A stretch of DNA of 32,782 bases from Candidatus Thorarchaeota archaeon (GCA_030612005.1 JAUWOU010000022.1:1-32782); one strand, 5' to 3'; counted from the stretch's first letter, positions 9,876 to 28,576 are shown. The notes: generated by a model not told the origin, from the letters alone. Program-made: numbers and translations.

Positions 9876-11735
9876 TTGAGGGGAACTAATCGTATTGCAA
9901 CTCTGTTTTTCGTAGTGTTACTATTAGTAATCTCATTTAGTGGAGTTCAATCTGTAAGTGGTTATTTCGGAGAAGATTTTCCTGCAAAAGGACCATACGT
10001 TGACGAAATCATCTTCAAGGTCATATCAAGTCAAGACCAGCGAGTTCTTGCACTCCAAAATGGCGAGATTGAAATGGACACCAGTTTCTTTGACCCATCT
10101 TACCTTCCCACATTGGCAACAGATCCAGACATTTCAATACACCAAGTAGACCGGAATGGATATGGGCAATTAACAATCAATTGTGCAAAATATCCTCTCA
10201 ACATAAGCGGATTCAGAAGAGCATTTGCATTTGCATTTAACAAAACAAAGCTTGCTTCCGAAGTAATGGATGGATTCGTTTTCGAACATGACTCCGTAGT
10301 ACCCCGACCTAATAGTTGGTGTGTAGAAGACGAGTTTGACTGGAATTACTATACAGCACTACCAGATGTAGGAAATCAGATTCTAGATTACCTTGGCTTT
10401 GAAATTAATGCGATCACTGGGTACCGACTTGCCCCAGATGATACTCCATTTGAGATAGTTTTTGAGCATTCAATAGTTAGCGCCAATCTTATTGCACTTC
10501 CAAATATTGTGCTGGAGGCATTGGAATCTTTGCATATTGATTGCAGAAAACAGTATGTTCAGTTCACTGACTATATGGATAGGGTACATCATCATGAGGA
10601 TTACGATATTGTCTTTTATGAAGCGGATTTCAACAACAATAATGTAGATTGGTTAGCATATGAATACGGGTCAGCTTATGCAGATGTTGACTTTCAGAAT
10701 CCCAGTAATTTTGTGAATGATACCTACGACGGTTGGTTAGATCAGCTCCTCTATGGTTCAACCTATGAAGAAGTGTATGAGGCTGCGGCGGAGATGCAGA
10801 AGATCCTGCACTACAACGTACCAAGGCTTGTCGTCTATGAGAACACCTACTTGCAAGGATACAGAAACGACCAATTCACCGGGCATGTGGAGGATCTTGA
10901 AAGATACATCTCAGGTCTATGGACCATGAGGAAAATACACAGACTGAATGATTCATTTGGTGGAACAGTTTCTATTGCTATCAGCGAAGATCCGGACAGC
11001 TTTAACTTCTTCACGGCTAATTCAGCTGACTCTGCATCAATCCTAGAAGAGCTCTGGCCTTCACTCTACAAATGTGGTCCAGATATGAATCCGATACCAG
11101 ACCTCGTTGAAAATATGCGGACAGAAACGCATAGTGACAATTCCATGGTACCTATAGGTCATATACGATATACTTTGGATATAATTAGAAATGCAACTTG
11201 GAGTGATGGAACAGCACTTACAGCCGAGGATGTTGCTTTTACTTACACTTATCAATTTGAGAGTGGATACTACGGAAATCCAGCCGCAAATGACCTGATG
11301 AAATTGTTTTCAGCATACGCCCCCTCTACATACAAAGTTGTCATAGAATTCTCAACAGAATCATACTGGCACTTCAGTAGCTTTGCATATGATTACATCA
11401 TTCCAAGTCACATCTTCAATGATGTAAGTGGAATTGGTTATGATGGATGGGACACTTGGAACCCAGTATTTGATTCCGCTGAGCCAAACGTGAATTGTGG
11501 TCCTTTCAATCTTACAGGTTACGTAGAAGAGGAATATTACAAGATAGAAAGGAATCCACTCTTTCACTATAAGGGGGATCCAGATGACCTAACTACTACC
11601 ACAAACCAGACGACTGTATCAAATGCGCTCTGGTTAACAGCAATCAGTACAGCACTGGTCGCAGGTTCAGGAATTCTCATCGTATATTGTATTTATTCAA
11701 AAGTTCAAGATCGCAAGAACGTTGAGAACGCTTGA
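9876..11735 (+). CDS. Family-5 extracellular solute-binding protein (SBP_5), permuted architecture, membrane-anchored (paralog 1)
   Basis: TTG start, signal peptide; canonical C-half motifs first (GPYVDEIIFKVISSQDQRVLALQNGEIEMD ... FRRAFAFAFNKTKL ... EMQKILHYNVPRLVVYENTYL), canonical N-half motifs second (FGGTVSIAISEDPDSFNF ... DIIRNATWSDGTALTAEDVAFTY ... GPFNLTGYVEEEYYKIERNPLFHY), Thr-rich linker, C-terminal TM. Confidence 0.88.
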   Translation: MRGTNRIATLFFVVLLLVISFSGVQSVSGYFGEDFPAKGPYVDEIIFKVISSQDQRVLALQNGEIEMDTSFFDPSYLPTLATDPDISIHQVDRNGYGQLTINCAKYPLNISGFRRAFAFAFNKTKLASEVMDGFVFEHDSVVPRPNSWCVEDEFDWNYYTALPDVGNQILDYLGFEINAITGYRLAPDDTPFEIVFEHSIVSANLIALPNIVLEALESLHIDCRKQYVQFTDYMDRVHHHEDYDIVFYEADFNNNNVDWLAYEYGSAYADVDFQNPSNFVNDTYDGWLDQLLYGSTYEEVYEAAAEMQKILHYNVPRLVVYENTYLQGYRNDQFTGHVEDLERYISGLWTMRKIHRLNDSFGGTVSIAISEDPDSFNFFTANSADSASILEELWPSLYKCGPDMNPIPDLVENMRTETHSDNSMVPIGHIRYTLDIIRNATWSDGTALTAEDVAFTYTYQFESGYYGNPAANDLMKLFSAYAPSTYKVVIEFSTESYWHFSSFAYDYIIPSHIFNDVSGIGYDGWDTWNPVFDSAEPNVNCGPFNLTGYVEEEYYKIERNPLFHYKGDPDDLTTTTNQTTVSNALWLTAISTALVAGSGILIVYCIYSKVQDRKNVENA

Positions 11736-11764
11736 TATTTGAAAATATATTGTTCAGCAGCAGC

Positions 11765-11853
11765 TTTCGATTTTTCGAATCCTAATGTGAGATTCCAAGA
11801 GGTTAAATGAGCATTTTCACACTATTAGTCTTGGATTGGAGGTTTAGGTGAAC
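11765..11853 (+). repeat. 89-bp upstream repeat, copy A (upstream of SBP paralog 2)
   Basis: Identical base for base to 15962-16050; begins tttcgatttttcgaatcctaatgtgag and ends ggaggtttaggtgaac just before the SBP start. Contains the small inverted repeat TTCGA-TTTT-TCGAA. Confidence 0.92.
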
Positions 11854-11857
11854 CTAT

Positions 11858-13759
11858 TTGAGGAAAGCTGTCCATACTACTGCACTGTTAGTAATAGTTG
11901 CTTTATTGGTAGTATTATTCGGGGGAACTCAGTTAATTAGTAGTTATTCAGAGTCAGATTCTCTTCTTACAGGACCATATATAGATGAGGTCATCTTCAA
12001 GGTCATAGTAGACCCAGGACAGACAGTTCTTGCCTTGCAAACAGGAGAGATTGAAATGGATACTGGCTTTATTCATCCAAATTATCTCCCACAATTGGAT
12101 ACAGATCCTAACATCGATATCTATAGATCAACTCGAAATGGTTATGGTCACATAACAATCAATTGTAGAAAATATCCACTCAATATCAGTGGTTTCAGAA
12201 GAGCCTTTGCATTTGCGTTTAACAAGACTAGAGTTTCTTCAGTAATATTTGATGGATTCAGCATTGAACACGACTCCATGGTACCCCAACCAAATAGCTG
12301 GTGTGCTGAAGACCAGTTTGACTATCATTATTATACCGCACAGCCGGATATTGGCAATCAGATTCTAGATGATCTGGGGTTCGCGATAGATGGTGAAACT
12401 GGTTATCGAAATGCCCCGGACGGAATACCATTTGAGATTGTTATAGAACATGGAAGTCCAGGGCCAGATAGGATTAGTACCCCGGATATTGCTGTAGAAG
12501 CGTTGCACTCGCTGCATATAGATGCCCATAGACAACCTGCAGACTGGAACGAGTACATCTCAAGGCTAGACAACCATGGTGATTATGACATGGTCTTCTT
12601 TGCCTCAAACTTCTTTGATAATGATATAGATTGGCTTGCATACGAGTACTGGTCTGAGTACGTTGATACACCCTATCAGAACCCAACCAACTTCAGAAAT
12701 GCAACCTACGACAGCTACAGAGATGCGCTCCTGTATGGTACAACCTACGAGGAAGTCTATGAGGCAGGTGCTGAGATGCAGAAGATACTGCACTACAACG
12801 TGCCAAGGCTTGTTGTCTATGAGAACGTCTACTTACAAGCATACAGGAACGATCAGTTCACCGGTCATGTTGAAGATCTTGGGAATCATATTTCTGGTCC
12901 ATGGACTATGAGAAATATCCACAACATCGATGGCACATTTGGTGGTACTGTTCCAATTGCTATTGGTCAGGAACCTGACAGTTTCAACATCTACGTAACA
13001 AACTCAGCTTACGCTGCAGCAATCAACTCTGAGCTATGGTCATCACTCTACAAATATAATCCAGACCTAGAGCCATGGCCGGATCTTGCTGAGAGTATGC
13101 TAACAGAAACCCATAGTGATAATCCAAGCATTCCTGAAGGGAATACACGATTTACTATCGATATCATAAGAAATGCAACATGGAGTGACGGAGAACCGGT
13201 TACAGCAGAGGATGTTGCATTTACATTCGTCTATGGATTAGAAACTGGCAACTACACTGATATGCATGATAGAGACCTGAGTGATCTCGAGGCCCTATAT
13301 TGTCCAGCACCATATCGTGTTGTCTTTGAATTTAAAACAGAATCATTTTGGCACTTCGGTAGATTTGCTTATGAGTATATAATTCCACAACACATTTTCA
13401 ACGATGTTACAGGAATTGGTTATGACAGATGGAACACCTGGAACCCAGTGTTTGATCCCGCGGAACCTAACGTGAACTGTGGTCCTTTCATCGTCACTGA
13501 CATAGAAGCAGGAGAATACTACAAAATAGAAAGGAATCCCCTTTTCCACTATGCTGCAGACCCAAATGCTCCGATAATAGAACCCACTTCCACTACAACA
13601 TCAAGTTCTACCACGACTTCACTTACAAACCAGTCGACAATACCGGAAATGAACGGGTCACTAGTATTCAGCATCACACTGATTTCAGGTGCAGGAATTG
13701 TAATTGTATTCTGCTTAGTAATTATAATGAAGGAGAGGCGGGCGCTGAATGATATTTGA
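11858..13759 (+). CDS. Family-5 solute-binding protein, permuted, membrane-anchored (paralog 2)
   Basis: Same permuted motif order as paralog 1; stalk EPTSTTTSSSTTTSLTNQST; TM near the C-terminus. Confidence 0.88.
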   Translation: MRKAVHTTALLVIVALLVVLFGGTQLISSYSESDSLLTGPYIDEVIFKVIVDPGQTVLALQTGEIEMDTGFIHPNYLPQLDTDPNIDIYRSTRNGYGHITINCRKYPLNISGFRRAFAFAFNKTRVSSVIFDGFSIEHDSMVPQPNSWCAEDQFDYHYYTAQPDIGNQILDDLGFAIDGETGYRNAPDGIPFEIVIEHGSPGPDRISTPDIAVEALHSLHIDAHRQPADWNEYISRLDNHGDYDMVFFASNFFDNDIDWLAYEYWSEYVDTPYQNPTNFRNATYDSYRDALLYGTTYEEVYEAGAEMQKILHYNVPRLVVYENVYLQAYRNDQFTGHVEDLGNHISGPWTMRNIHNIDGTFGGTVPIAIGQEPDSFNIYVTNSAYAAAINSELWSSLYKYNPDLEPWPDLAESMLTETHSDNPSIPEGNTRFTIDIIRNATWSDGEPVTAEDVAFTFVYGLETGNYTDMHDRDLSDLEALYCPAPYRVVFEFKTESFWHFGRFAYEYIIPQHIFNDVTGIGYDRWNTWNPVFDPAEPNVNCGPFIVTDIEAGEYYKIERNPLFHYAADPNAPIIEPTSTTTSSSTTTSLTNQSTIPEMNGSLVFSITLISGAGIVIVFCLVIIMKERRALNDI

Positions 13760-15647
13760 GAACAGAAGATTAAAGGTTCAAAAGAAAGCAATCTTTACAA
13801 TTTTTGTTTTGCTTCTGGTTTTTCTAACAAGTCCCAACAATGTACAAGGACTTGAATCAACTCTATCCAATCTCTCAACAGGACCCTACGTTGATGAGGT
13901 CATCTTCAAGGTCATCGAAAACCAAGACCAGCGTGTTCTAGCTTTGCTGGAAGGAGAGATTGAGATGGATACTAACTTTTTCGACCCTGTACATCTTTCC
14001 ACTCTGGATGCAGATCCAAATATCGATGTCTATACTGCATTGAGAAATGGGTATGGTCATATTACAATAAACTGTGAAAAATATCCGCTCAACATCAGTG
14101 GTTTGAGAAGAGCTTTTGCCTTTGCGTTTAACAAGACAAGAGTTACTGAAGAAATACTGGATGGATTCGGTATTGAACACGACTCACTGGTGCCCCGACC
14201 AAATGGTTGGTGTGTTGAAGACCAGTTTGATTATCATTATTATGCAGCACAACCAGATATTGGTAACCAGATATTAGATGCCCTGAATTTCACAATCGAT
14301 GCAGGAACAGGATTCAGATTAGCGCCTGATGGCACTCCATTTGAGATTGCTATCAAATACGCAGCCTCATCACCAGAGATTGCTGGGGGTACAGCCCAGA
14401 TTGCTGTTGATGCACTGCGTAGTCTTGGAGTAAAAGCAGAAACCCTTGCTTCAACCTTCGAAGAGTATGGCTATGGTCCATTGTGGGACTTTGACATGGT
14501 CTTCTATGCCGTAAACTTCCACACCAATGATGTCGACTGGCTTGCATATGAGTACTGGTCTGAGTACGCAGATGAACCATATCAAAACCCAACCAACTTC
14601 AGAAACGCAACCTATGACAACTGCATAGATCAGCTCCTCTACAGTACAACCTATGAGGAAGTCTTTGAAGCAGCTTCCGAGATGCAAAAGATTCTACACT
14701 ATAACGTCCCGAGACTTGTAGTATATGTCGATACCTACATGCAAGGGTACAGAAACGACCAGTTCACTGGTCATGTTGAAGACGTCGGTAGAAACATCGC
14801 AGGTTCATGGACTATGAGAAAGATTCACAAACTCGATGGCACATTTGGTGGTTCTATCCCAGTTGCTATTGGTCGGATTCCCGATAGCTTCAATTTCTTC
14901 GTCACAAACTCCGTCGACTCTGCATCAATCTTATCAGAGCTTTGGCCATCACTCTACAAATGGGGTCCAGACCTTAAGCCTTGGCAGGATATTGCAGAGA
15001 ACGTGTTAACAGAAGTTCATACCGATAATCCAGAAGTACCAGACGGGCATACTAGATTCACTATCGATATAGTTCACAATGCCACATGGACTGATGGAAC
15101 ACCAATCACTGGCACAGATGTCGTATACAGTATCATATATTCATTTGAAAGTGCAATTTATGGTAACCCAGCCGGTTCTGATATTGGTGATTTATTTGCA
15201 GCCTATACACGCTCCACATTTACTGTAATAATCGAGTTCAGTACAGAATCCTATTGGCACTTCAGTAATTTCGCATTTGACTACATTATTCCATACCATA
15301 TTTTCAACGATGTTACAGGAATTGGTTATGACAGATGGAACACCTGGAACCCAGTGTTTGATCCCGCGGAACCTAACGTGAACTGTGGTCCATTTACTTT
15401 CACAGACTATGAAGCAGGAGAATACTACAAAATAGAAAGGAATCCCCTTTTCCACTATGCTGCAGACCCAAATGCTCCGATAATAGAACCCACTTCTAAT
15501 ACAACAGGACATACAAACCAGTCTATAGTACAGGAAATGAATTGGTCATTAGTATTCGGCTTTACAATTGGCTCAGGCTCCACTATAGTCATTTTCTACA
15601 GCCTAGTAATGATCAATAAAAGTCGCAGAAACGTTGAGAGCAATTGA
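13749..15647 (+). CDS. Family-5 solute-binding protein, permuted, membrane-anchored (paralog 3)
   Basis: Overlaps the end of paralog 2 by 11 nt; same permuted motif order; hydrophobic C-terminal anchor. A later start may be used. Confidence 0.87.
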   Translation: MIFENRRLKVQKKAIFTIFVLLLVFLTSPNNVQGLESTLSNLSTGPYVDEVIFKVIENQDQRVLALLEGEIEMDTNFFDPVHLSTLDADPNIDVYTALRNGYGHITINCEKYPLNISGLRRAFAFAFNKTRVTEEILDGFGIEHDSLVPRPNGWCVEDQFDYHYYAAQPDIGNQILDALNFTIDAGTGFRLAPDGTPFEIAIKYAASSPEIAGGTAQIAVDALRSLGVKAETLASTFEEYGYGPLWDFDMVFYAVNFHTNDVDWLAYEYWSEYADEPYQNPTNFRNATYDNCIDQLLYSTTYEEVFEAASEMQKILHYNVPRLVVYVDTYMQGYRNDQFTGHVEDVGRNIAGSWTMRKIHKLDGTFGGSIPVAIGRIPDSFNFFVTNSVDSASILSELWPSLYKWGPDLKPWQDIAENVLTEVHTDNPEVPDGHTRFTIDIVHNATWTDGTPITGTDVVYSIIYSFESAIYGNPAGSDIGDLFAAYTRSTFTVIIEFSTESYWHFSNFAFDYIIPYHIFNDVTGIGYDRWNTWNPVFDPAEPNVNCGPFTFTDYEAGEYYKIERNPLFHYAADPNAPIIEPTSNTTGHTNQSIVQEMNWSLVFGFTIGSGSTIVIFYSLVMINKSRRNVESN

Positions 15648-15657
15648 TATTCGAGTA

Positions 15658-15890
15658 CTAGAAGATCTTCGGCTCGTGCCATTCACCCCACAGATTACGC
15701 CAGACTTCTAATTTCTTTCCAACAGTTGCATATGCTTTGACTGCATCAACAATATGAGGTATGACATTCTCGCTACTTTCTGAGGCTTTTGGAAAACCAG
15801 CAAGTGTTGCTTCAACTTTAAAGCTGTCACGCTCCTTTCGGACCTTCGGTGTTCGTTCAACCTCTGGGTCAATCTTGAAAACTGGATTTG
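15658..15890 (-). pseudogene. Truncated 3' fragment of a methylmalonyl-CoA mutase gene (homologous to 18005-18252)
   Basis: Minus-strand frame gives [75 protein letters not shown], versus [80 protein letters not shown] in the intact gene; one 15-nt in-frame deletion. Confidence 0.88.
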
Positions 15891-15961
15891 TCCGTCTTGG
15901 TCTTTTTGCAGTTGCTGTGCTTTTCGGTAGAAGGCGAGGCTCCGTTCCATAACAAGGTACA

Positions 15962-16050
15962 TTTCGATTTTTCGAATCCTAATGTGAGATTCCAAGAGGT
16001 TAAATGAGCATTTTCACACTATTAGTCTTGGATTGGAGGTTTAGGTGAAC
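15962..16050 (+). repeat. 89-bp upstream repeat, copy B (upstream of SBP paralog 4)
   Basis: Identical to 11765-11853 (offset 4197). Confidence 0.92.
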
Positions 16051-16054
16051 TGAT

Positions 16055-17983
16055 TTGAGGAGATCCGTTCGTACTGCGACTCTGCTGGTAATAACAGCTC
16101 TAGTGGTGGTTTCATTTAGTGGAGTTACTGAAGCTAGTGATTATTATGAATCAGATTCTCTTGTTACAGGACCGTATGTTGATTGTATAGAATTTCTTTA
16201 TATTGGTAACCAAAATCAGATAGTTCGCGCTTTGCAGGCAGGGAGTATACAGATGGCGTCGAATTACTTCATTCCATCTTACCTTCCAGCATTAGAAGAA
16301 GATCCAGATATCGAATTATATAACTCAACTCGGAATGGTTATGGTCATATTTCAATAAACTGTGCCAAGTATCCTCTGAACATTAGTGGTTTCCGTAGAG
16401 CTTTTGCCTATGCATTCGACAAACAATTGCTAAGAGTAAATATTATGGATGGGTTTTCACAGGACCATGATTCGTTAGTCCCATATTGTAATCAATGGTG
16501 TATTGAGGATGATCTTCCATGGCATTATTACACTGCCCAACCAGACGTAGGAAATTCAATACTTGATGAACTTGGGTTCGAGATAGATGGTGTAACTGGA
16601 TATCGGAATGCACCAAATGGCACACCATTTGACATTGCAATAGAAAGCTGGAGTTATGGTGGTGGCATATCACAAATTGGAGTAGATGCACTAAGTGCCT
16701 TAGGCGTGAATGCAACCACTAAATTTTCAGACTACATCGAATTAAGAGATCGCTTTGGTACGCATGGTGACTATGATATGATCGTCTCTAGTACTCAGTT
16801 CGACACGTTCGATATTCAATGGTTAGCAGATGAATACGGGTCAATGAATGCAAATATTGATTACAAAAATCCAACAAACTTCAGAAACGAATCCTTTGAT
16901 GCATGGATAGACCGACTACGATATAGTACAACACGAGAAGATATTCAAGAAGCTGCTGCTGCGATGCAACTAATCCTTCACGAAAATGTTCCAAGGCTTG
17001 TTGTGTATCAGCATATCTACAGGACAGCATACAGAGTTAGCGAATTCGCAGGTCATGTCGGTAGCAAGGTTTCAAGTATTACAAATCAATGGACATTTCG
17101 AAATATACACCCACAATCTGCAGACTTTGGCGGCACTGTATCAGTTGCACTGTATAATGATATAGTAAGTTTCAACCATTTCACACCAGACTATATGTCC
17201 GATGTCTATTTTCATTATAGGAGAGATGATGATGTCATAGTCCTTGACTTGATTTATTCATCGCTTTTCGATAGGGGACCAGATATGAAGCCAGTCCCAG
17301 ATTTGGTAGTAAGCATGTATGAAGAAACTCATAGTGATAATCCGAATGTCGCAAAGAATCGAATAAGGTTTACAATGGATATTGTACAAAATGCAACATG
17401 GTCTGATGGTGTTCCTCTCACTGCAGATGATATAGTGTTCACATTCCTCTACATGATGGAGAATGGAGTAGCTCATACACCTTTCAATTTGGACTGGTCA
17501 TATAGTGAAATCAATAGTCTTTGGTCTCCAACACCTTACAGAGTGGTCATAGAATTTTCCACGGAGTCCTATTGGCACTTCGAGAAATTTGCCTATGAAT
17601 ACATTCTTCCAATGCACATCATGACAAATGAAGAATTGATGGAAGGTTCAGATTACCTTTCATGGAATCCTGGAATTAACGCATCACAACCACTCGTTAC
17701 AAGTGGACCATTCCTTCTATCTGATTTCAGCCTAGATTACTACAACGATGTTAATGCTTGCGAATTCTCCTATAATCCAGCATTCTACTTTGCCCCTGAA
17801 CGTCCCTCTACTGAAACAACTACTACAACAACTACAACTACAACTATAACATTAACGACAACAAACGCAACGAATAATCAAAGCATGAATTTGCCCCTTA
17901 TCTTCATCACAGCTTCGATTTCATGTTCAGGAACTGTTATTGTATTTTACGTAGTAGTTAAGTTTCAGAACCGTAAGAGCTAA
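16055..17983 (+). CDS. Family-5 solute-binding protein, permuted, membrane-anchored (paralog 4, most divergent)
   Basis: Same permuted order (GPYVDCIEFLYIGNQNQIVRALQAGSIQM ... NPTNFRNESFDAWIDRL ... DFGGTVSVAL ... VQNATWSDGVPLTADDIVFTF); Thr-rich stalk STETTTTTTTTTTITLTTTNATNNQ; C-terminal TM. Confidence 0.87.
   Translation: MRRSVRTATLLVITALVVVSFSGVTEASDYYESDSLVTGPYVDCIEFLYIGNQNQIVRALQAGSIQMASNYFIPSYLPALEEDPDIELYNSTRNGYGHISINCAKYPLNISGFRRAFAYAFDKQLLRVNIMDGFSQDHDSLVPYCNQWCIEDDLPWHYYTAQPDVGNSILDELGFEIDGVTGYRNAPNGTPFDIAIESWSYGGGISQIGVDALSALGVNATTKFSDYIELRDRFGTHGDYDMIVSSTQFDTFDIQWLADEYGSMNANIDYKNPTNFRNESFDAWIDRLRYSTTREDIQEAAAAMQLILHENVPRLVVYQHIYRTAYRVSEFAGHVGSKVSSITNQWTFRNIHPQSADFGGTVSVALYNDIVSFNHFTPDYMSDVYFHYRRDDDVIVLDLIYSSLFDRGPDMKPVPDLVVSMYEETHSDNPNVAKNRIRFTMDIVQNATWSDGVPLTADDIVFTFLYMMENGVAHTPFNLDWSYSEINSLWSPTPYRVVIEFSTESYWHFEKFAYEYILPMHIMTNEELMEGSDYLSWNPGINASQPLVTSGPFLLSDFSLDYYNDVNACEFSYNPAFYFAPERPSTETTTTTTTTTTITLTTTNATNNQSMNLPLIFITASISCSGTVIVFYVVVKFQNRKS
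17811..17866 (+). repeat. ACT/ACA-type triplet-rich low-complexity tract encoding the poly-Thr stalk
   Basis: gaaacaactactacaacaactacaactacaactataacattaacgacaacaaac inside SBP paralog 4. Confidence 0.75.
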
Positions 17984-18004: not shown

Positions 18005-19687
18005 CTAGAATATCTTCGGCTCGTCCCATTCGCCCCATAAATTACGCCAGACTTCGAATATCTCTCCAATAGTAGCATAGGCTTTGACTGCGTCAACAAT
18101 ATGAGGCATAACATTCTCGTCACTCTCAGATGCCTTCAGGAGACCCGCTAGTGCTGCTTCAACCTTGGTGTTATCTCGCTCTTTCCGTATCTTCTGAGTT
18201 CGTTCAACCTGACGTCGTTCTACCTCTGGGTCAATCTTGAGAACTGGAATTGTAATCTTTTCACCTTCAAGAACGTAATCATTGACACCAACGATTGTAC
18301 GCTCACCAGACTCAATCTCTTTTTGATAACGATAAGACGCCTCTGATATCTCACGCTGGAAGAAGCCTTTCTCGATTGCCTCGACTACTCCACCCATAGC
18401 ATCAACTTTGTCAAAGTACTTGTAGGCTTCTGCTTCCATATCATTCGTCAGAGCCTCTACATAGTAAGAACCAGCTAATGGATCAATTGTGTTTGCCGCT
18501 CCACTCTCCTGAGCAAGTACTTGCTGGGTTCTCAGAGCAACTCGAACTGCATCCTCGGTGGGTAGGCATAGAGCCTCATCCATTGAATTTGTGTGCAATG
18601 ACTGAGTACCTCCAAGTACTGCAGCTAGAGCCTGATATGCAGTTCTCACAACATTCACCGTTGGTTGCTGAGCTGTGAGTGAGCATCCTGCAGTCTGAGT
18701 ATGGAAGCGCATCCAGAGAGACCTCTCTTTCTTTGCACCAAAGGTCTCTTTCATCTCTCGCGCCCAGATACGTCGAGCCGCACGATACTTGGCCACCTCT
18801 TCGAATATGTCGTTGTGGGCATTGAAGAAGAATGACAGTCTAGGAGCAAATGAATCAACATCTAGACCTTGTTTCATTCCAACCCTTACATATTCCATTC
18901 CATTGATGAGTGTAAAGGCTAGTTCCTGCGAAGCCGTCGACCCAGCTTCCCGTATGTGATAGCCCGAGATCGAAATTGTGTTCCATCTCGGAATCTTCTT
19001 CGTTGCATATTCCATGATGTCACCGGTGATACGTAGAGATGGAGCAGGGGCAAGAATCCATGACTTCTGAGCCATGTACTCTTTTAGCAGATCATTTTGG
19101 ATTGTTCCTCCAATCTTGTCGGCGGACACTCCCTGCTTCTGTGCAGCGACCATGTACATCGCCAACAAAATTCCGGCTGGAGCATTGATCGTCATTGAAG
19201 TTGTGACTTGATCTAGTGGAATTCCTGCGAAGAGAATCTCAATGTCCTTGAGACTGTCTATAGCAACACCGAGTTTCCCAACTTCACCCATGGCATAGGG
19301 ATGGTCTGAGTCTCGTGCAAAGAGAGTAGGAAGATGAAAAGCAACACTGAGACCAGTCTGTCCATTGGCTAGTAGAAACTTGAACCGTTGATTTGTTTCC
19401 TCAGCAGAACCCATACCAGCGAACTGGCGCATTGTCCAGACACGACCACGGTACATACTTGGTTGAACTCCACGAGTATACGGATACTCACTTGGAAGAC
19501 CAAGGTCATTCATGTAGTCGAATTTTGGAACATCAAGAGGTGTATAGATTGCCTTGATTGGTCGACTAGATGTGGTCACGAAATCCTTACGACGGTCAGG
19601 ATGTTTCTTCTGGTGTGAACCTAGGGTTTCTTTCTCCCATGAATCATGGGCTTTCTGAATTTTGTCCAAGTTCTTCTCTGCACCCAT
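18005..19687 (-). CDS. Methylmalonyl-CoA mutase large (catalytic) subunit, without B12-binding domain
   Basis: [116 protein letters not shown]. Ends without the DxHxxG B12 module. Track ORF begins at 19732; ATG 19687 with an AGGAG upstream is the better start. Confidence 0.93.
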
Positions 19688-19755
19688 TCGGAGCTCCTCC
19701 GTGGTGAAACAAGTCTTCGAGCAGTGTATCAATTATTAACTGTTCGTTTCGAGTC

Positions 19756-20319
19756 CTAGAACTCAAAGCCTCTCCGAGCAGTAATCTTTCTTGTCGAATA
19801 GTAATGTTTGACCTCTCTCATTTCAGTAACAAGATCTGCAGCATCAAGTATCTCCTGCTTTGCATACCTTCCAGTCATAATGAGTTCTACATCTGAAGGT
19901 TTGATGTCCAAAAGTGCCAACTGGTCTTCAAGCGAGAACAGATTCCACTCTACAGCAACGTTGATTTCATCGAGGATTAGAACATCACAGGTATGATTCT
20001 GGAGCGCATCCTGTGCCATCTTGAGACCATCTTGTGCCATCTTGATATCGATCGGGTCAGGATTTTCCTTATCCACAAAGGTTTCTCGACCAACTGGTTC
20101 GATAGTGAAATTAGGAATCTGGTCCACTGAACGAAACTCGCCATAGTTGATATCATCACCATCGACACGCTTCGCAACCTTTGCCTTCATGAAAGAGATA
20201 ACTAATACTTCAAGACCATGCCCTGCAGCGCGAAGTCCTGCACCCAAGGCACAGGTTGTTTTTCCTTTTCCATTTCCTGTGTATATCTGTATAAGACCAG
20301 GTGAAGTTTTGTCAGACAT
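19756..20319 (-). CDS. cobO: Cob(I)alamin adenosyltransferase, CobO/BtuR type
   Basis: P-loop GLIQIYTGNGKGKTTCALGAGLRAAGHG, VLILDEINVAVEWNLF, LIMTGRYAKQEILDAADLVTEM. Confidence 0.93.
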   Translation of the reverse strand: MSDKTSPGLIQIYTGNGKGKTTCALGAGLRAAGHGLEVLVISFMKAKVAKRVDGDDINYGEFRSVDQIPNFTIEPVGRETFVDKENPDPIDIKMAQDGLKMAQDALQNHTCDVLILDEINVAVEWNLFSLEDQLALLDIKPSDVELIMTGRYAKQEILDAADLVTEMREVKHYYSTRKITARRGFEF

Positions 20320-21697: not shown

Positions 21698-21742
21698 AAT
21701 CTGTGGAGTATATCTTAGAAAATATAATTGGTGAAGGCCAAA

Positions 21743-22984
21743 ATGGCAGAAAAATTAGAATACAAAAATGAAAGCGTTGTCGAACTCGGTTCTACCGAGG
21801 GTGATGTCGAAATTCGCAATTGCGGAGAGCTTGAGCCTCAACAGGGTGATGAGATATTAATCTTAGGAACTCTGACAGTTTATGGTGATCTCGATATCGA
21901 AGGATCACTTCAGTGTGAGAGCCTAGTATTGAAGACTAGGGATCAAGTTACAGTCAGAGGGAATCTCATCGCAAGAAGTTCTGTTGATGCACGAAAAGGA
22001 TCACTAAAAGTAGAAGAAGATCTTGAGTCTCGTACCGTTGAGGTTGGGTCTTCTCTTCGTGTTGGTGGAAATCTCAAATGTGTGTCCGCGAAAGCAGGAG
22101 CCTCAATCAAAGTTGTAGGTAATGCTGAAGCGCAGAGACTCACCGGCGGTGCATCAGTCAAAATTGAAGGAGACTGCAAGGTCGAAAGAATTGCTGGTGG
22201 CGGCTCTGTAGTTGTATACGGCACAATCGAAGCTGAAGAATTTGATGCAGGTGGAGCAGGTAAGGTTGTAAAAGGCATCATCAAGAAAGTTTCAGTTGGT
22301 GGATCATTCAAGGCTGTAGAATCTATTGAAATTGATGAACTAGATGTTGGGGGTTCAGCAAAAGTTGGCGCAGGCTCAAAAGTGGGCAACATCGATATTG
22401 GTGGTACGTTCAAATCTGAGGGAAACCTAGAGTTTGGTGATATTGATGTAGGTGGAGCCGTCAAATTAGGTGGTACTGCACGAGGAGATTCAATCGATGT
22501 CGGTGGTACAGTAAAGACCGAGGGTGATTTATTCCTAACCGGTGGACTAAACGTCGGTGGTACTGTTAAGGTTGATGGAAATCTAAACTGTGAAGATAAG
22601 ATCAAAGTTGGTGGTACTGTCAGAGTAGAAGGTAGAATCAATACATTCCGAATCATTGTCGGTGGTGAAATCGATGCAGAATACACAAAAGCCACGGATG
22701 GTGTGAGGATTGGAAAGCGTGCAGAAATCAGAGGACCTGTCGAATCCAAAGAAATTCTCATTCGGGAACGCGCAAGAACAGATTCACTCTACGGTGATGA
22801 CATTCGAATCGAAGAACGCTCACGAGTAGGCAGTCTCTATGGCCGCAAAATCTACATTGAACGTGATGTTATTGTAGAAGGTAAGACACTCTACACAGAG
22901 AGCCTCGAATCAGAGAATGGTGTAGAATTCGGAGAAGAACCAAAGAAGGTAGATAAATTACCTCCTCCGGAAGAACTTGAGTAG
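21743..22984 (+). CDS. Polymer-forming, bactofilin-like beta-helical repeat protein
   Basis: Repeats of the form VGGTVKxxGDL / VGGSxKVxxxIEIDELDVGG through most of the protein (e.g. IDIGGTFKSEGNLEFGDIDVGGAVKLGGTARGDSIDVGGTVKTEGDL). Track start 21728; ATG 21743 (MAEKLEYKNESVVEL) likely. Confidence 0.8.
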   Translation: MAEKLEYKNESVVELGSTEGDVEIRNCGELEPQQGDEILILGTLTVYGDLDIEGSLQCESLVLKTRDQVTVRGNLIARSSVDARKGSLKVEEDLESRTVEVGSSLRVGGNLKCVSAKAGASIKVVGNAEAQRLTGGASVKIEGDCKVERIAGGGSVVVYGTIEAEEFDAGGAGKVVKGIIKKVSVGGSFKAVESIEIDELDVGGSAKVGAGSKVGNIDIGGTFKSEGNLEFGDIDVGGAVKLGGTARGDSIDVGGTVKTEGDLFLTGGLNVGGTVKVDGNLNCEDKIKVGGTVRVEGRINTFRIIVGGEIDAEYTKATDGVRIGKRAEIRGPVESKEILIRERARTDSLYGDDIRIEERSRVGSLYGRKIYIERDVIVEGKTLYTESLESENGVEFGEEPKKVDKLPPPEELE

Positions 22985-24013: not shown

Positions 24014-24988
24014 ATGGCAGTTGGCAAGAAGACGCTCAAAGAGTTATTCTCAAGAACTCTGAAAATAAGACTGTTCGAAGAGAAAGTCTGGGATTTGTTT
24101 GGAGAAAATATTGTCCCTGGAACACTACATCTGTATCTTGGACAGGAAGCAGTAGCAGCTGGTGTAACTACTGCACTCAAGAAATCAGACTGGATCCAAA
24201 GCTCTCACAGAGGACATGGGCATGTTGTTGCAAAGGGTGCAGACATGAATGCAGCCTTAGCAGAATTGCTGGGTAAGAAGACAGGTTCCTGTAAGGGAAA
24301 GGGAGGCTCAATGCACATCACTCAGCTAGATGTAGGCGTTTTAGGAGCAACTGGTGTTGTCGCATCAGGACTTCCAATTGCTGTTGGCGCAGCACTCTCG
24401 TGTCAGATGAGAAAGACAGACGACGTGGTGGTCTGCTTCTTCGGAGACGGAGCTTCAAACAATGGAACTTTTGGTGAATCATTGAATATGTCTGCAATCT
24501 GGAAGTTACCTTTAGTCTGGATTGTGGAGAATAATTTTTACGCCATGGGAACTCCGATAACAATGACCTGTCCCAGTTCAACTGTTGCACAGAGAGCTGA
24601 GGCATACTGTATTCCAAGTAAGGTGGTTGATGGGAATAACGCTGTCGAAGTGTATGAGGCAACCATTGAAGCCGTAAAGAGAGCCAGAGAGGGTGGCGGT
24701 CCAACTCTAATCGAATGTCAGACGTATAGAATGAAAGGACACTCTAGATTCGATCCTGCCAAGTACCGACCAAAAGAGGAAGTTGATTATTGGCTCAGCG
24801 AAGAGAAAGATGCGGTAAATGTCATTCAGAAGATTGCCATCGAGCAGGGTGCAATCACTGAGAAAGATGCTGATAAGATAAGAGAAAAACTACAGAAAGC
24901 TGTAGACAAGGCGGGAGAGTTTGCGAAAAATTCTGATTTTCCAGAGCCAGAAGAAGCCTTGGATGATGTCTATGCGGAGGCAATCTAA
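24014..24988 (+). CDS. Thiamine-dependent 2-oxoacid (pyruvate/acetoin-type) dehydrogenase E1 alpha subunit
   Basis: HLYLGQEAVAAGVTTALKKSDWIQSSHRGHGHVVAKG, GKGGSMHI, TPP motif GDGASNNGTFGESLNMSAIWKLPLVWIVENN, RMKGHSRFDP. Confidence 0.94.
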   Translation: MAVGKKTLKELFSRTLKIRLFEEKVWDLFGENIVPGTLHLYLGQEAVAAGVTTALKKSDWIQSSHRGHGHVVAKGADMNAALAELLGKKTGSCKGKGGSMHITQLDVGVLGATGVVASGLPIAVGAALSCQMRKTDDVVVCFFGDGASNNGTFGESLNMSAIWKLPLVWIVENNFYAMGTPITMTCPSSTVAQRAEAYCIPSKVVDGNNAVEVYEATIEAVKRAREGGGPTLIECQTYRMKGHSRFDPAKYRPKEEVDYWLSEEKDAVNVIQKIAIEQGAITEKDADKIREKLQKAVDKAGEFAKNSDFPEPEEALDDVYAEAI

Positions 24989-25963
24989 ATGGCGGAGATT
25001 ACATACAGAGAGGCACTCAAACAGGGACTCCGTGAAGAGATGCTCCGTGACGAGCGTGTATTCTTACTAGGTGAAGATATTGGATTGAACTGGGGCGGAG
25101 CTTTCAAGGTCACCAAGGACCTAGCAGAAGAGTTTGGTGAAGACCGAGTTCGTGATACTCCCATCTCAGAAAATACAATTGCAGGGGCTGCAGTAGGTGC
25201 AGCTATCACAGGGATGGTACCTGTGGCAGAGATTATGTTCGGAGACCTGATTACCCTAGCAATGGACCAAGTATGCAATCAAGCTGCAAAGATGCGCTAT
25301 ATGTTCGGCGGACAAACCTCTGTACCCTTAGTAATCAGGACCGTCTTTGGTGGAGGAAAGAATTTAGCGTCACATCACTCACAGAGCTTGGAGTCATGGT
25401 TCATGCATACTCCAGGTCTTAAGGTTGCAGTGCCCGCCTTTGCTTCAGATGTGAAAGGGCTAATTAAAACAGCAATAAGAGACCCTGACCCAGTTCTCTT
25501 TGCAGAACACAAGCTGGTTTATGATAGAAAAGAAGAAGTTCCAGATGATGAGTATCTGATTCCGTTTGGTCAAGCTAAGATTCGTCGAGAGGGAGCAGAT
25601 GTTACACTTTGGGGTACATTTCTCATGGTGCACAAAGCACTTGAGGTAGCTGAAGAACTCCAGAAGGAAGGAATCAGTGTTGAAGTGATTGACCCGAGAA
25701 CACTTGTTCCTCTTGATACGAAGACTCTCATCGAGTCGGTCAAAAAGACTGGAAGACTGGTACTTGTGACTGAAGAAACAAAGACCGGAGCAACAACTGC
25801 AGAAGTTGCTGCTATTGTTCAAGAAGAAGCATTTGACTGGTTAGATGCGCCAATAAAGAGAGTGAATGCACCGGACACACCAGTACCATTCAGTCCGCCA
25901 CTTGAACAGTACTTCATTCCCGACAACAAGAGAATCGCACAGGCAGTTCGAGATATTGTATAG
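24989..25963 (+). CDS. 2-oxoacid dehydrogenase E1 beta subunit
   Basis: ITYREALKQGLREEMLRDERVFLLGEDIGLNWGGAFKVTKDLAEEFGEDRVRDTPISENTIAGAAVGAAITGMVPVAEIMFGD; C-terminal VEVIDPRTLVPLDTKTLIESVKKTGRLVLVTEE. Confidence 0.95.
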   Translation: MAEITYREALKQGLREEMLRDERVFLLGEDIGLNWGGAFKVTKDLAEEFGEDRVRDTPISENTIAGAAVGAAITGMVPVAEIMFGDLITLAMDQVCNQAAKMRYMFGGQTSVPLVIRTVFGGGKNLASHHSQSLESWFMHTPGLKVAVPAFASDVKGLIKTAIRDPDPVLFAEHKLVYDRKEEVPDDEYLIPFGQAKIRREGADVTLWGTFLMVHKALEVAEELQKEGISVEVIDPRTLVPLDTKTLIESVKKTGRLVLVTEETKTGATTAEVAAIVQEEAFDWLDAPIKRVNAPDTPVPFSPPLEQYFIPDNKRIAQAVRDIV

Positions 25964-25972
25964 GTGATAATT

Positions 25973-27199
25973 ATGGTTACGACCATGATCATGCAGCGAA
26001 TGAGTGTCGCTATGGAATATGGAGTGATACTCAAATGGCTCAAGAAAGAGGGAGATAAAGTCAAGAAAGGAGACCTTGTTGTAGAGATTTTTGGAGAGAA
26101 GAACGAGTTCGAACTCGAAGCACCAGGGGACGGTGTCATCCTGAAGATTCTATGTGATGTCAATGATGAGATACCAATCAGTGAACCTATCGCATTCATT
26201 GGAAAAGAGGGTGAAAAGATTCCAGATGTCAGACCAAGAAAACTGAACGCGGCTACCTCAACTTCACCATCAACGACATCGGTAGCACCCAGTACTAAGA
26301 CTGCAGTTACTCAAACAGCTCCACCAAGTACTGAAACACGATTACCTGGTGGAAAAATCAAAGCATCACCTAGAGCTAAAAAGAAAGCAAAGGAATTAGG
26401 AGTGGACCTATCCGTAGTGGTTGGTACTGGTCCAGAAGGCCGAATCGTTGAGAAGGATGTCATTAGTGCAAAGGCTGCAACACCTCAAATTGATCTTTCT
26501 GATGACCGGAAAGTAAGCAAAGTAGAAACCATGACTCCACTAAGAAGAACAATTGCGAGAAGAATGACTCAGAGCGCTTTGAATCCTCATATCACCATGA
26601 TAACAGAGATTGATATGACTGAGGCAATCACTCTCAGAAAGGAACTCAATCTTCGCGTAGAGAAAGCTCATGGAATACGGGTTTCATTTAATGACATAAT
26701 TGTAAAGGCTGTAGCAGATACTTTGGAACTCTTTCCGAAATTCAATGCTACTCTAGCCGGTAATGATCTTCACGTGTTCGATGATGTGAATATTGGTGTA
26801 GCAATGGCTACTGATGATGGTTTGATAGTTGTTACAATCAGAGAAGCTAACAAGAAATCAATCACCGATATTGCTATCGAAACTAAGGAGAAGGGTAAGA
26901 GGGCTAAGAAGAACAAACTTACTTCTGAAGAGATGACTGGGAGCACATTTACTGTGTCCAATCTAGGACCGTTCAAAGTAGATTTGTTCATCCCCGTGAT
27001 CAATCCCCCAGAAACTGCAATATTGGCTCTTGGGCAGATTAAGAAGAAACCGGTTGTAGTTGACGATAAGATTGTAGTTAGGTCTATGATGATGGCTTCT
27101 TGCGCAGTAGACCATAGGATTCTAGATGGTGCACCTGCGGGTCAATTTCTTGCAGCTTTGAAGGAAACTCTAGAGAATCCCTACATGATGAAGATGTAA
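25973..27199 (+). CDS. 2-oxoacid dehydrogenase E2 (dihydrolipoamide acyltransferase)
   Basis: Single lipoyl domain (ILKWLKKEGDKVKKGDLVVEIFGEKNEFELEAPGDGVI), peripheral-subunit-binding domain (KASPRAKKKAKELGVDLSVVVGTGPEGRIVEKDV), catalytic CAVDHRILDGAPAGQFL. Track start 25964; ATG 25973 fits E2 N-termini and the upstream AGGTGAT. Confidence 0.94.
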   Translation: MVTTMIMQRMSVAMEYGVILKWLKKEGDKVKKGDLVVEIFGEKNEFELEAPGDGVILKILCDVNDEIPISEPIAFIGKEGEKIPDVRPRKLNAATSTSPSTTSVAPSTKTAVTQTAPPSTETRLPGGKIKASPRAKKKAKELGVDLSVVVGTGPEGRIVEKDVISAKAATPQIDLSDDRKVSKVETMTPLRRTIARRMTQSALNPHITMITEIDMTEAITLRKELNLRVEKAHGIRVSFNDIIVKAVADTLELFPKFNATLAGNDLHVFDDVNIGVAMATDDGLIVVTIREANKKSITDIAIETKEKGKRAKKNKLTSEEMTGSTFTVSNLGPFKVDLFIPVINPPETAILALGQIKKKPVVVDDKIVVRSMMMASCAVDHRILDGAPAGQFLAALKETLENPYMMKM

Positions 27200-27250
27200 A
27201 GCTCTGCAAAGCATTATGAGCTTTCAGAAATATATCTCAAATGAAAAGAG

Positions 27251-27556
27251 ATGATTAACTCAAGACAGTGTCCAAAATGTGGTGGTACGCAGATAGCGGG
27301 ACCACACAGAATTTTCGGTCAACATCATGTTAGAATAGACTTACCGGGAATGTCAACAGCTACACTTGAAGCATTAACCTGTGCTGATTGTGGGTATACT
27401 GAGTTGTATAGCGATAGAATGGGATTGAGTAATATTAAGAGATCTGGAAGATTTCTCCAAGGTCGTCAATCAGATTCCCCTCGTTCGTGTGCGTTTTGTG
27501 GAACTAAGGTTCGTACAGATGCAACATACTGTCCAGAGTGTGGAAATAGCATCTAA
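27251..27556 (+). CDS. Small protein with two zinc ribbons
   Basis: CPKCGGTQ...CADCGY and CAFCGTKVRTDATYCPECG. Confidence 0.75.
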   Translation: MINSRQCPKCGGTQIAGPHRIFGQHHVRIDLPGMSTATLEALTCADCGYTELYSDRMGLSNIKRSGRFLQGRQSDSPRSCAFCGTKVRTDATYCPECGNSI

Positions 27557-27634
27557 TTGAAATATTCAATAATTAGGTGTTTTCGTCAATTTGAATCAGG
27601 TGGACCTTAAATTGTAGAACCAAGACAATATCAT

Positions 27635-27750
27635 GCACGTACAAACGTGCCAAACCTCGATTACGACATCTGCTCCGCCTCAATTGTTGCTCTGAGGCTT
27701 TCCAGCCGGTGGTGAGCAACTTACTTTGGCCATCGGCTCTACAACAGATT
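27635..27750 (+). ncRNA. Candidate structured RNA / 5' leader upstream of lplA (three hairpins plus loop-loop complementarity)
   Basis: Hairpin 1 GCACGT-ACAA-ACGTGC (27635-27650); hairpin 2 GCCTCA/TGAGGC (27677-27682/27693-27698); hairpin 3 AGCCGGTGG/CCATCGGCT (27704-27712/27730-27738); loop 2 GTTGCTC (27686-27692) is perfectly complementary to loop 3 GAGCAAC (27714-27720). Locally GC-richer than surrounding intergenic DNA. Confidence 0.45.
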
Positions 27751-27755
27751 AATCA

Positions 27756-27770
27756 GATACAGAAAGTATC
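27756..27770. promoter_or_regulatory. Inverted repeat GATAC-AGAAA-GTATC just upstream of the lplA start codon
   Basis: Perfect 5-bp arms ending 8 nt before ATG 27779. Confidence 0.35.
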
Positions 27771-27778
27771 ACTATCTT

Positions 27779-28576
27779 ATGTCATGGCGCTTATTGAACA
27801 ATCAAGGTTCTGATGTTTTTCACAACCTAGCTGTTGATGAAGCGCTTGCGAAAACGTACCAACAATCTGAAAATACACTCAATACTCTGCGATTTTGGGA
27901 GTCTGACAAGGCAGTTGTTATTGGAAGATTTCAATGCGTACACAAGGAAGTGAATCTAGAATTCTGTAAGGAGAATAGTATATCGATTGCACGAAGATTC
28001 ACGGGAGGCGGCGCAGTTTTTCATGATTTAGGAAATCTGAATTATGCGATTCGTCTGCACCAATACCACGACTATGTACCTAGAGGTCTCAAAGAACTCT
28101 ATGAAACATTCATTGGAGCAATTTCAGATAGTCTGAACTCTATTAATATCCCAGCGAGTTTTGATCCGGTAGGGTCCTGTATAAGAATTGGAAAAAAGAA
28201 AATCGCTGGAACTGCGGGGTGGATTAAACAGGGTATTTCATTTATCCATGGAACGCTCCTTATTGATGCGGATCTTGAGATGCTTCAAGAAAGTCTGAAT
28301 CCTCCAGAGGGGCAACCAGTTTTTCTCCGAGATAAGACTAGAATTAGATGCATGAAGAGTAAGAGAGACACTGTTACAAATATTGCACATGAAGTAGAAG
28401 ATTGTCCCACACGGGATGAAATTTGTAGTGCAATTATTGAAACGTTAGCTGAATTGGCAGGAGCCTCAATTGATGAAGGAAGACTAACACAAGAGGAGGT
28501 CGACACTTCACAGACTTTATATCAATCACACTATAAACAGGCATCATGGAACATGGGAATTCTAGCCCATGAATAA
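27779..28576 (+). CDS. lplA: Lipoate-protein ligase A-like (BPL/LPL catalytic domain)
   Basis: LRFWESDKAVVIGRFQCVHKEVNLEFCKENSISIARRFTGGGAVFHDLGNLNYAI and IRIGKKKIAGTAGWIKQGISFIHGTLLIDADL are LplA motifs. Confidence 0.92.
   Translation: MSWRLLNNQGSDVFHNLAVDEALAKTYQQSENTLNTLRFWESDKAVVIGRFQCVHKEVNLEFCKENSISIARRFTGGGAVFHDLGNLNYAIRLHQYHDYVPRGLKELYETFIGAISDSLNSINIPASFDPVGSCIRIGKKKIAGTAGWIKQGISFIHGTLLIDADLEMLQESLNPPEGQPVFLRDKTRIRCMKSKRDTVTNIAHEVEDCPTRDEICSAIIETLAELAGASIDEGRLTQEEVDTSQTLYQSHYKQASWNMGILAHE

Follow-up and report, generated by a model that had tools for sequence, protein, structure and literature searches.

Results

The stretch of DNA analysed here (the window, 32,782 nucleotides) is contig C234 of a Candidatus Thorarchaeota archaeon genome of 3.64 Mb in 271 contigs (GCA_030612005.1, JAUWOU010000022.1:1-32782). 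Within 9876-17983 it carries a tandem array of four intact, full-length open reading frames (ORFs) on the plus strand, and their translations are solute-binding proteins (SBPs) of the SBP_bac_5 (SBP_5) family, which is their sole Pfam match. The canonical, co-linear order of this family, N-C1-C2, was found in none of the four. Instead, each begins with an N-terminal hydrophobic signal, followed by the canonical C-part (C1-C2) starting with GPYxD at residue 39 or 45, a linker, the canonical N-part (FGGTVxIAI...NPLFHY) at about residues 361-565, and a short stalk with a hydrophobic C-terminal segment. With hydrophobic segments at both ends, as read from the translations, the four proteins are predicted to be exported and anchored or periplasmic. 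A Thr-rich stalk, which a sequence-only reading of this DNA had assigned to all four, stands out in proteins 2 and 4 but is short in proteins 1 and 3. The genes of proteins 2 and 3 share 11 bases, where the former ends and the latter starts (Table 1).

The rearrangement is evident from the Pfam profile itself. PF00496 (SBP_bac_5) scored 137-157 bits against the four proteins (gathering cut-off 32.4; E 1e-39 to 1e-45) and matched each of them (4/4) in two swapped stretches, profile positions ~143-364 coming first and ~2-166 second. For example, window 11975-12658 in protein 2 corresponds to profile 146-363, and 13076-13624 to profile 3-166. The relatives from the Protein Data Bank (PDB) shown in the phmmer alignment were likewise matched in two stretches of swapped order; residues 261-427 of the 4pfu chain (TM1226) aligned with query residues 99-262, and residues 73-151 with 437-516. 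By BLASTP, residues 37-338 of protein 2 aligned with 218-529 of a canonical Asgard protein (L164), and residues 361-564 with 32-217. The two segments abut on L164, so the canonical chain is cut at a single site, the 217/218 boundary, in agreement with the breakpoint given by the sequence-only reading. That reading also had the old C- and N-ends joined almost without a linker, and 3-4 residues were indeed found at the new join of the window proteins, with 2-10 residues in 48 relatives as judged from the profile edges.

For a rotation scan, 16 canonical Asgard SBP_5 proteins served to build a profile of 573 positions, against which the mature domains were scored after rotation in 5-residue steps. 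The best single-domain score nearly doubled upon rotation, from 96 to 178 bits for protein 1, 112 to 207 for protein 2, 107 to 171 for protein 3, and 85 to 159 for protein 4. The maxima fell within residues 343-383, near the junction identified by eye; canonical controls peaked at zero rotation with no gain. The swapped-order signal is far beyond chance. The array proteins thus show the marks of a natural circular permutant: swapped, complementary and near-complete segments (protein 2 against L164), co-linearity after rotation, and unpermuted homologues in the same lineage. A co-linear reading of the PF00496 match was ruled out by the swapped stretches, the rotation scan and the BLASTP alignment to L164. 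Nor is the first half an unrelated domain, since it corresponds to the C-part of SBP_5; the two halves are both of this family.

The AlphaFold2 model of protein 2 (546 aa) is a single compact fold with a pLDDT of 89.4 and a pTM of 0.88. Its 50 best Foldseek matches were all cluster C binding proteins (SBP_5), with E values from 1e-15 down to 1e-18 or 1e-19, and the top PDB relatives by sequence and fold were DppA, AppA, TM1223 and alike. The Foldseek alignments span ~300-345 of the 546 residues, with TM scores of ~0.4-0.5 (for DppA, 1dpe, rmsd 2.5 over 317 columns). A permuted order would lead to such partial coverage with an aligner that works sequentially.

Table 1. Permuted SBP_5 genes of the window and their parts
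Feature	Position	Strand	Remarks
Permuted SBP_5 protein 1	9876-11735	+	619 aa; signal, C1-C2, N, short stalk, transmembrane segment
Protein 1, canonical C-part	9990-10955	+	PF00496 143-362
Protein 1, canonical N-part	10956-11570	+	PF00496 19-149
Permuted SBP_5 protein 2	11858-13759	+	633 aa
Protein 2, canonical C-part	11972-12937	+	PF00496 146-363
Protein 2, canonical N-part	12938-13552	+	PF00496 3-166
Protein 2, Thr-rich stalk and C-terminal hydrophobic (membrane) segment	13553-13756	+	read off the translation
Permuted SBP_5 protein 3	13749-15647	+	632 aa
Protein 3, canonical C-part	13881-14843	+	PF00496 146-364
Protein 3, canonical N-part	14844-15458	+	PF00496 10-146
Permuted SBP_5 protein 4	16055-17983	+	642 aa; most divergent of the four
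Protein 4, canonical C-part	16169-17125	+	PF00496 144-362
Protein 4, canonical N-part	17126-17791	+	PF00496 2-128

The C1-C2-N order, with its cut at about position 145 of PF00496, is hereafter called type A; a second rotation, C2-N-C1 with the cut at about position 288, is called type B. Candidatus Thorarchaeota is also the source of related records, among them the chromosome CP070761.1, and the order was C1-C2-N in 48/48 first-round relatives. In a profile search, a model of the junction matched 45/47 genomes of the host's family. One of the 45 (G023) matched over the N-part only, and such matches reach at most about 58 bits; the other 44 matched at E <= 1e-40. The remaining two genomes, with no match, have a completeness of 52% and 67%. 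In Asgard families f9, f12 and f10 the junction was spanned as well, and segment profiles verified the order there; the sequence-only reading had suggested such a survey. Nearly all genomes of the host's family thus carry type A, as do at least three further Asgard families; 66 proteins among the fetched loci that were scanned are C1-C2-N, and arrays reach at least seven copies (G212:C173). In bacteria, no type A protein was found among plasmids, and two-piece full-length matches proved canonical in 6/6 (L215-L220). The window's genome holds eight type A copies, namely four in the array, three at contig C208 and one at C264, together with a canonical SBP_5 protein at C224 (L020), a canonical fragment at C155, and a C2 fragment of undecided order at C25. 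Canonical SBP_5 proteins also occur in other genomes of the host's family.

Given an assembly in 271 contigs, one could suspect errors of assembly or gene prediction, or genes in decay. However, the four ORFs are full-length with uninterrupted frames and strong conservation, and the same order recurs in dozens of independent assemblies as well as in complete or single-contig genomes (CP070761.1, G076). The single-contig genomes rule out an assembly artefact, and the chance of any explanation of this kind is practically nil.

Type A and type B genes both adjoin Dpp/Opp permease genes. Type A genes close permease gene sets at L025, L033, L039, L042 and L043 (same genus), and at C264 (L023) in the window's genome; the order at L043 is permC-permB-SBP. 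The sets at L025, L033 and L039 that end in a type A SBP have an unusual three permeases (permC-type, permB-type, permC-type). Some type A proteins are fused to subtilases or Ig/PKD-like domains. A subtilase domain (Peptidase_S8) was found in five long ones, L029 (1-7704), L056, L057, L058 and L059, which are giant secreted Thorarchaeota proteins of 1647 to >2500 aa. The subtilase fusion would fit capture and digestion of extracellular protein.

Type B was found in Asgard families f4, f6 and f12 (examples L182, L183 and L227) and on plasmids of Nitratireductor, Maritalea, Ketogulonicigenium, Halobaculum, Halarchaeum, Haloprofundus and Halomarina, that is, in Asgard archaea, haloarchaea and Alphaproteobacteria. 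The permuted SBP_5 order reported by the sequence-only reading is confirmed, and the case is also wider than that reading envisioned. Rotation raised the scan score of L205 from 212 to 270 bits, of L207 from 167 to 200 and of L213 from 136 to 177. L210 and L214 showed no gain, and their type B call comes from segment order alone; C2 of L206 was under the profile threshold, and its order comes from Pfam's two stretches and a gain from 179 to 191. Against the PDB, the two parts of L205 were swapped in the alignments shown, with no co-linear solved structure among those. Several bacterial and haloarchaeal C2-N-C1 genes (L205:2626-4254, L202:2599-4359, L207:2701-4377 and others) are followed by permease, or ATPase and permease, genes. 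These bacterial and haloarchaeal proteins are annotated merely as 'ABC transporter substrate-binding protein'; WP_113156578.1 and WP_222609512.1 are further examples of type B.

The clearest type B case is the SBP of L227 (G091:C5). Its residues 206-557 align with 69-411 of the canonical C224 protein of the window's genome at 57% identity, and residues 35-197 with 416-577 at 52%; the two operons share the gene order SBP, two permeases, two ATPases. This is a recent rotation inside a canonical operon. A near-identical copy in G089 (L198, G089:C284, upstream of 7611, minus strand) has an in-frame TGA in the type B C2 part, where the G091 frame is uninterrupted; this TGA may reflect a sequencing error, a pseudogene or recoding. 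Type B and type A have in common the SBP_5 family, the join of the old C- to the old N-terminus and, in many loci, permease neighbours. In contrast to type A, type B is cut at PF00496 ~288 rather than ~145, occurs also in bacteria and haloarchaea, and has separate origins in the tree.

Rotated sequences were placed in a common tree (92 rows, 499 columns; branch support by SH-aLRT). Type A formed one clade there (99*), with a canonical Asgard group containing L164 as its nearest relative (84, not starred). Type B requires four changes in this tree, at least two of them forced by starred branches; its f12 copy is nested among canonical orthologues on a branch with 100*. The C1-C2-N order could also stem from a fusion of two truncated SBPs, with the C-part and the N-part taken from different genes, and a quick tree of the N half does split type A into two groups. 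However, halves of 200-300 columns resolve deep branches poorly; for the N half the likelihood was higher with type A held together (p-AU 0.64), the C half gave one group, and both halves allowed type A to join the canonical L164 group. The trees of the separate halves thus permit type A as one clade, and no chimera was shown. The parts are, moreover, complementary, with no gap at the breakpoint, and form one complete fold in the confident model. Such a fusion is therefore quite improbable, and a chimera that rebuilt one fold would still have a circularly permuted topology.

Elsewhere in the window, methylmalonyl-CoA mutase and ATP:corrinoid adenosyltransferase genes lie beside the SBP array (18005-20319, minus strand). 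A 418 aa protein (21728-22984, plus strand) matches bactofilin (PF04519) over residues 259-351, preceded in the chain by similar glycine-rich repeats. Genes of a pyruvate/2-oxoacid dehydrogenase complex (E1 alpha, E1 beta, E2), with a lipoate-protein ligase gene after them, occupy 24014-28573 on the plus strand of this archaeal contig.

Discussion

The present study indicates, with a probability of about 0.9, that the four window proteins are naturally circularly permuted SBP_bac_5 proteins (cluster C, Opp/Dpp), secreted and C-terminally membrane-tethered, which would serve as receptors of a Dpp/Opp importer. The order of the PF00496 match, the rotation test, the pairwise alignment, the single-domain model and the wide conservation all uphold the claim of the sequence-only reading that the four tandem proteins are permuted. 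Some points weigh against our interpretation. The window has no permease or ATPase gene; Foldseek, which aligns sequentially, covered ~60% of the model and did not superpose its two halves at once; and a domain-swapped oligomer may be an alternative assembly.

The folded protein would be the usual two-lobed clam-shell closing on its ligand, probably a peptide, which would be handed to a Dpp/Opp-type ABC importer. Because the window lacks a permease, the array proteins would add to the receptors of an importer whose genes lie elsewhere, for instance at the C264 locus of the same genome. The missing permease could also mean that the permuted proteins do not serve import but are surface sensors, adhesins or substrate-docking modules that keep the binding cleft. 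The fusion of several type A proteins to subtilases or Ig/PKD-like domains would suit such roles, as would the fact that only one of the eight permuted copies in the window's genome lies beside permease genes. Nevertheless, a type A gene stands last in a permease operon in several genomes, among them one of the same genus and the window's own at C264, and a shared importer is commonly served by orphan SBPs. Roles other than import are thus unlikely, though less so than a chimeric origin, and a receptor function remains our preferred interpretation.

The window proteins resemble canonical cluster C members (DppA, OppA, AppA, NikA and TM1223) in that both halves match the family, a signal peptide is present, and relatives are linked to Dpp/Opp permeases. 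They differ in the order C1-C2-N instead of N-C1-C2 and in the anchor that follows the N-part. A natural circular permutation of an ABC-type SBP has been described for the membrane-tethered TpMglB-2 (Tp0684) of Treponema pallidum, assigned to 'cluster Bc' (PMC4990184). TpMglB-2, however, has a cluster B (type I) sugar-binding fold with ~100 N-terminal residues moved to the C-terminus, and belongs to another family with another breakpoint. No such fold was found in the window proteins, whose sole Pfam match is SBP_bac_5 and whose top fold matches are of cluster C. Engineered circular permutants of periplasmic binding proteins also exist (PMC6335823, PMC9815098); these share the permuted binding-protein topology but are laboratory constructs from other SBP clusters. 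The open-access literature that we searched held no report of natural permutation in SBP_5 or cluster C, and a survey of Asgard transporters (PMC7997004) does not mention permutation. The statement of the sequence-only reading that no permuted SBP_5 family had been described thus holds for the open-access literature, with the qualification that natural permutation has been published for another SBP cluster (PMC4990184).

Type A predates the window array, since it forms one clade across several Asgard families. This speaks against the earlier proposal that the permutation arose within this array by tandem duplication. In its favour are the tandem arrangement of the locus, the existence of arrays with at least seven copies (G212:C173), and a fused canonical double protein (L054, G023:C1; N-c1-c2-N-c1, 975 aa, part masked), which makes an intermediate possible. 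However, the single clade extends over at least four Asgard families and includes single-copy loci, so the event must be much older, and a local origin is highly improbable; local duplication only multiplied an already permuted gene. L054 nonetheless indicates that the kind of intermediate needed for duplication and trimming exists in the lineage, though in another subfamily. The same contig also encodes an SBP within a protein of >3100 aa with repeat-like extracellular parts (L053). In type A the canonical N-C1-C2 chain is open between N and C1, a linker of 3-10 residues connects the old termini, and the signal peptide and membrane anchor occupy the new ends. The proposed route to this arrangement is a tandem duplication whose copies were fused in frame and then lost their outer halves.

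Alignment to DppA places the type A cut at ~207 and the type B cut at ~340. By the published domain limits of DppA, the former leaves the chain ends in lobe I and the latter shifts them into lobe II. Because the lobes differ, the tether would change its place, and such relocation may be a reason for rotation. The authors of the TpMglB-2 study likewise propose tethering as a possible reason for its permutation (PMC4990184). The bacterial type B proteins that we looked at lack a membrane segment at the C-terminus, and this makes tethering less convincing as a general cause.

Circular permutation is probably a recurrent and largely unnoticed evolutionary mode of Opp/Dpp-type SBPs. The family shows all three rotations, N-C1-C2, C1-C2-N and C2-N-C1; one would have given rise to an Asgard-wide, highly expanded receptor family, and another would have arisen several times in archaea and bacteria, once recently within an otherwise unchanged operon, and rotation may shift the tether between lobes. 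Natural permutants whose unpermuted orthologues are still intact offer a rare opportunity to study the evolution of protein topology. The orthologous operons at C224 and G091:C5 differ by rotation at 52-57% identity, close enough for experiments. Automated annotation hides the rearrangement, as the label of the bacterial type B proteins illustrates. For Asgard biology, the finding points to an expanded family of tethered receptors, sometimes fused to subtilases, that would be suited to scavenging extracellular protein and peptides.

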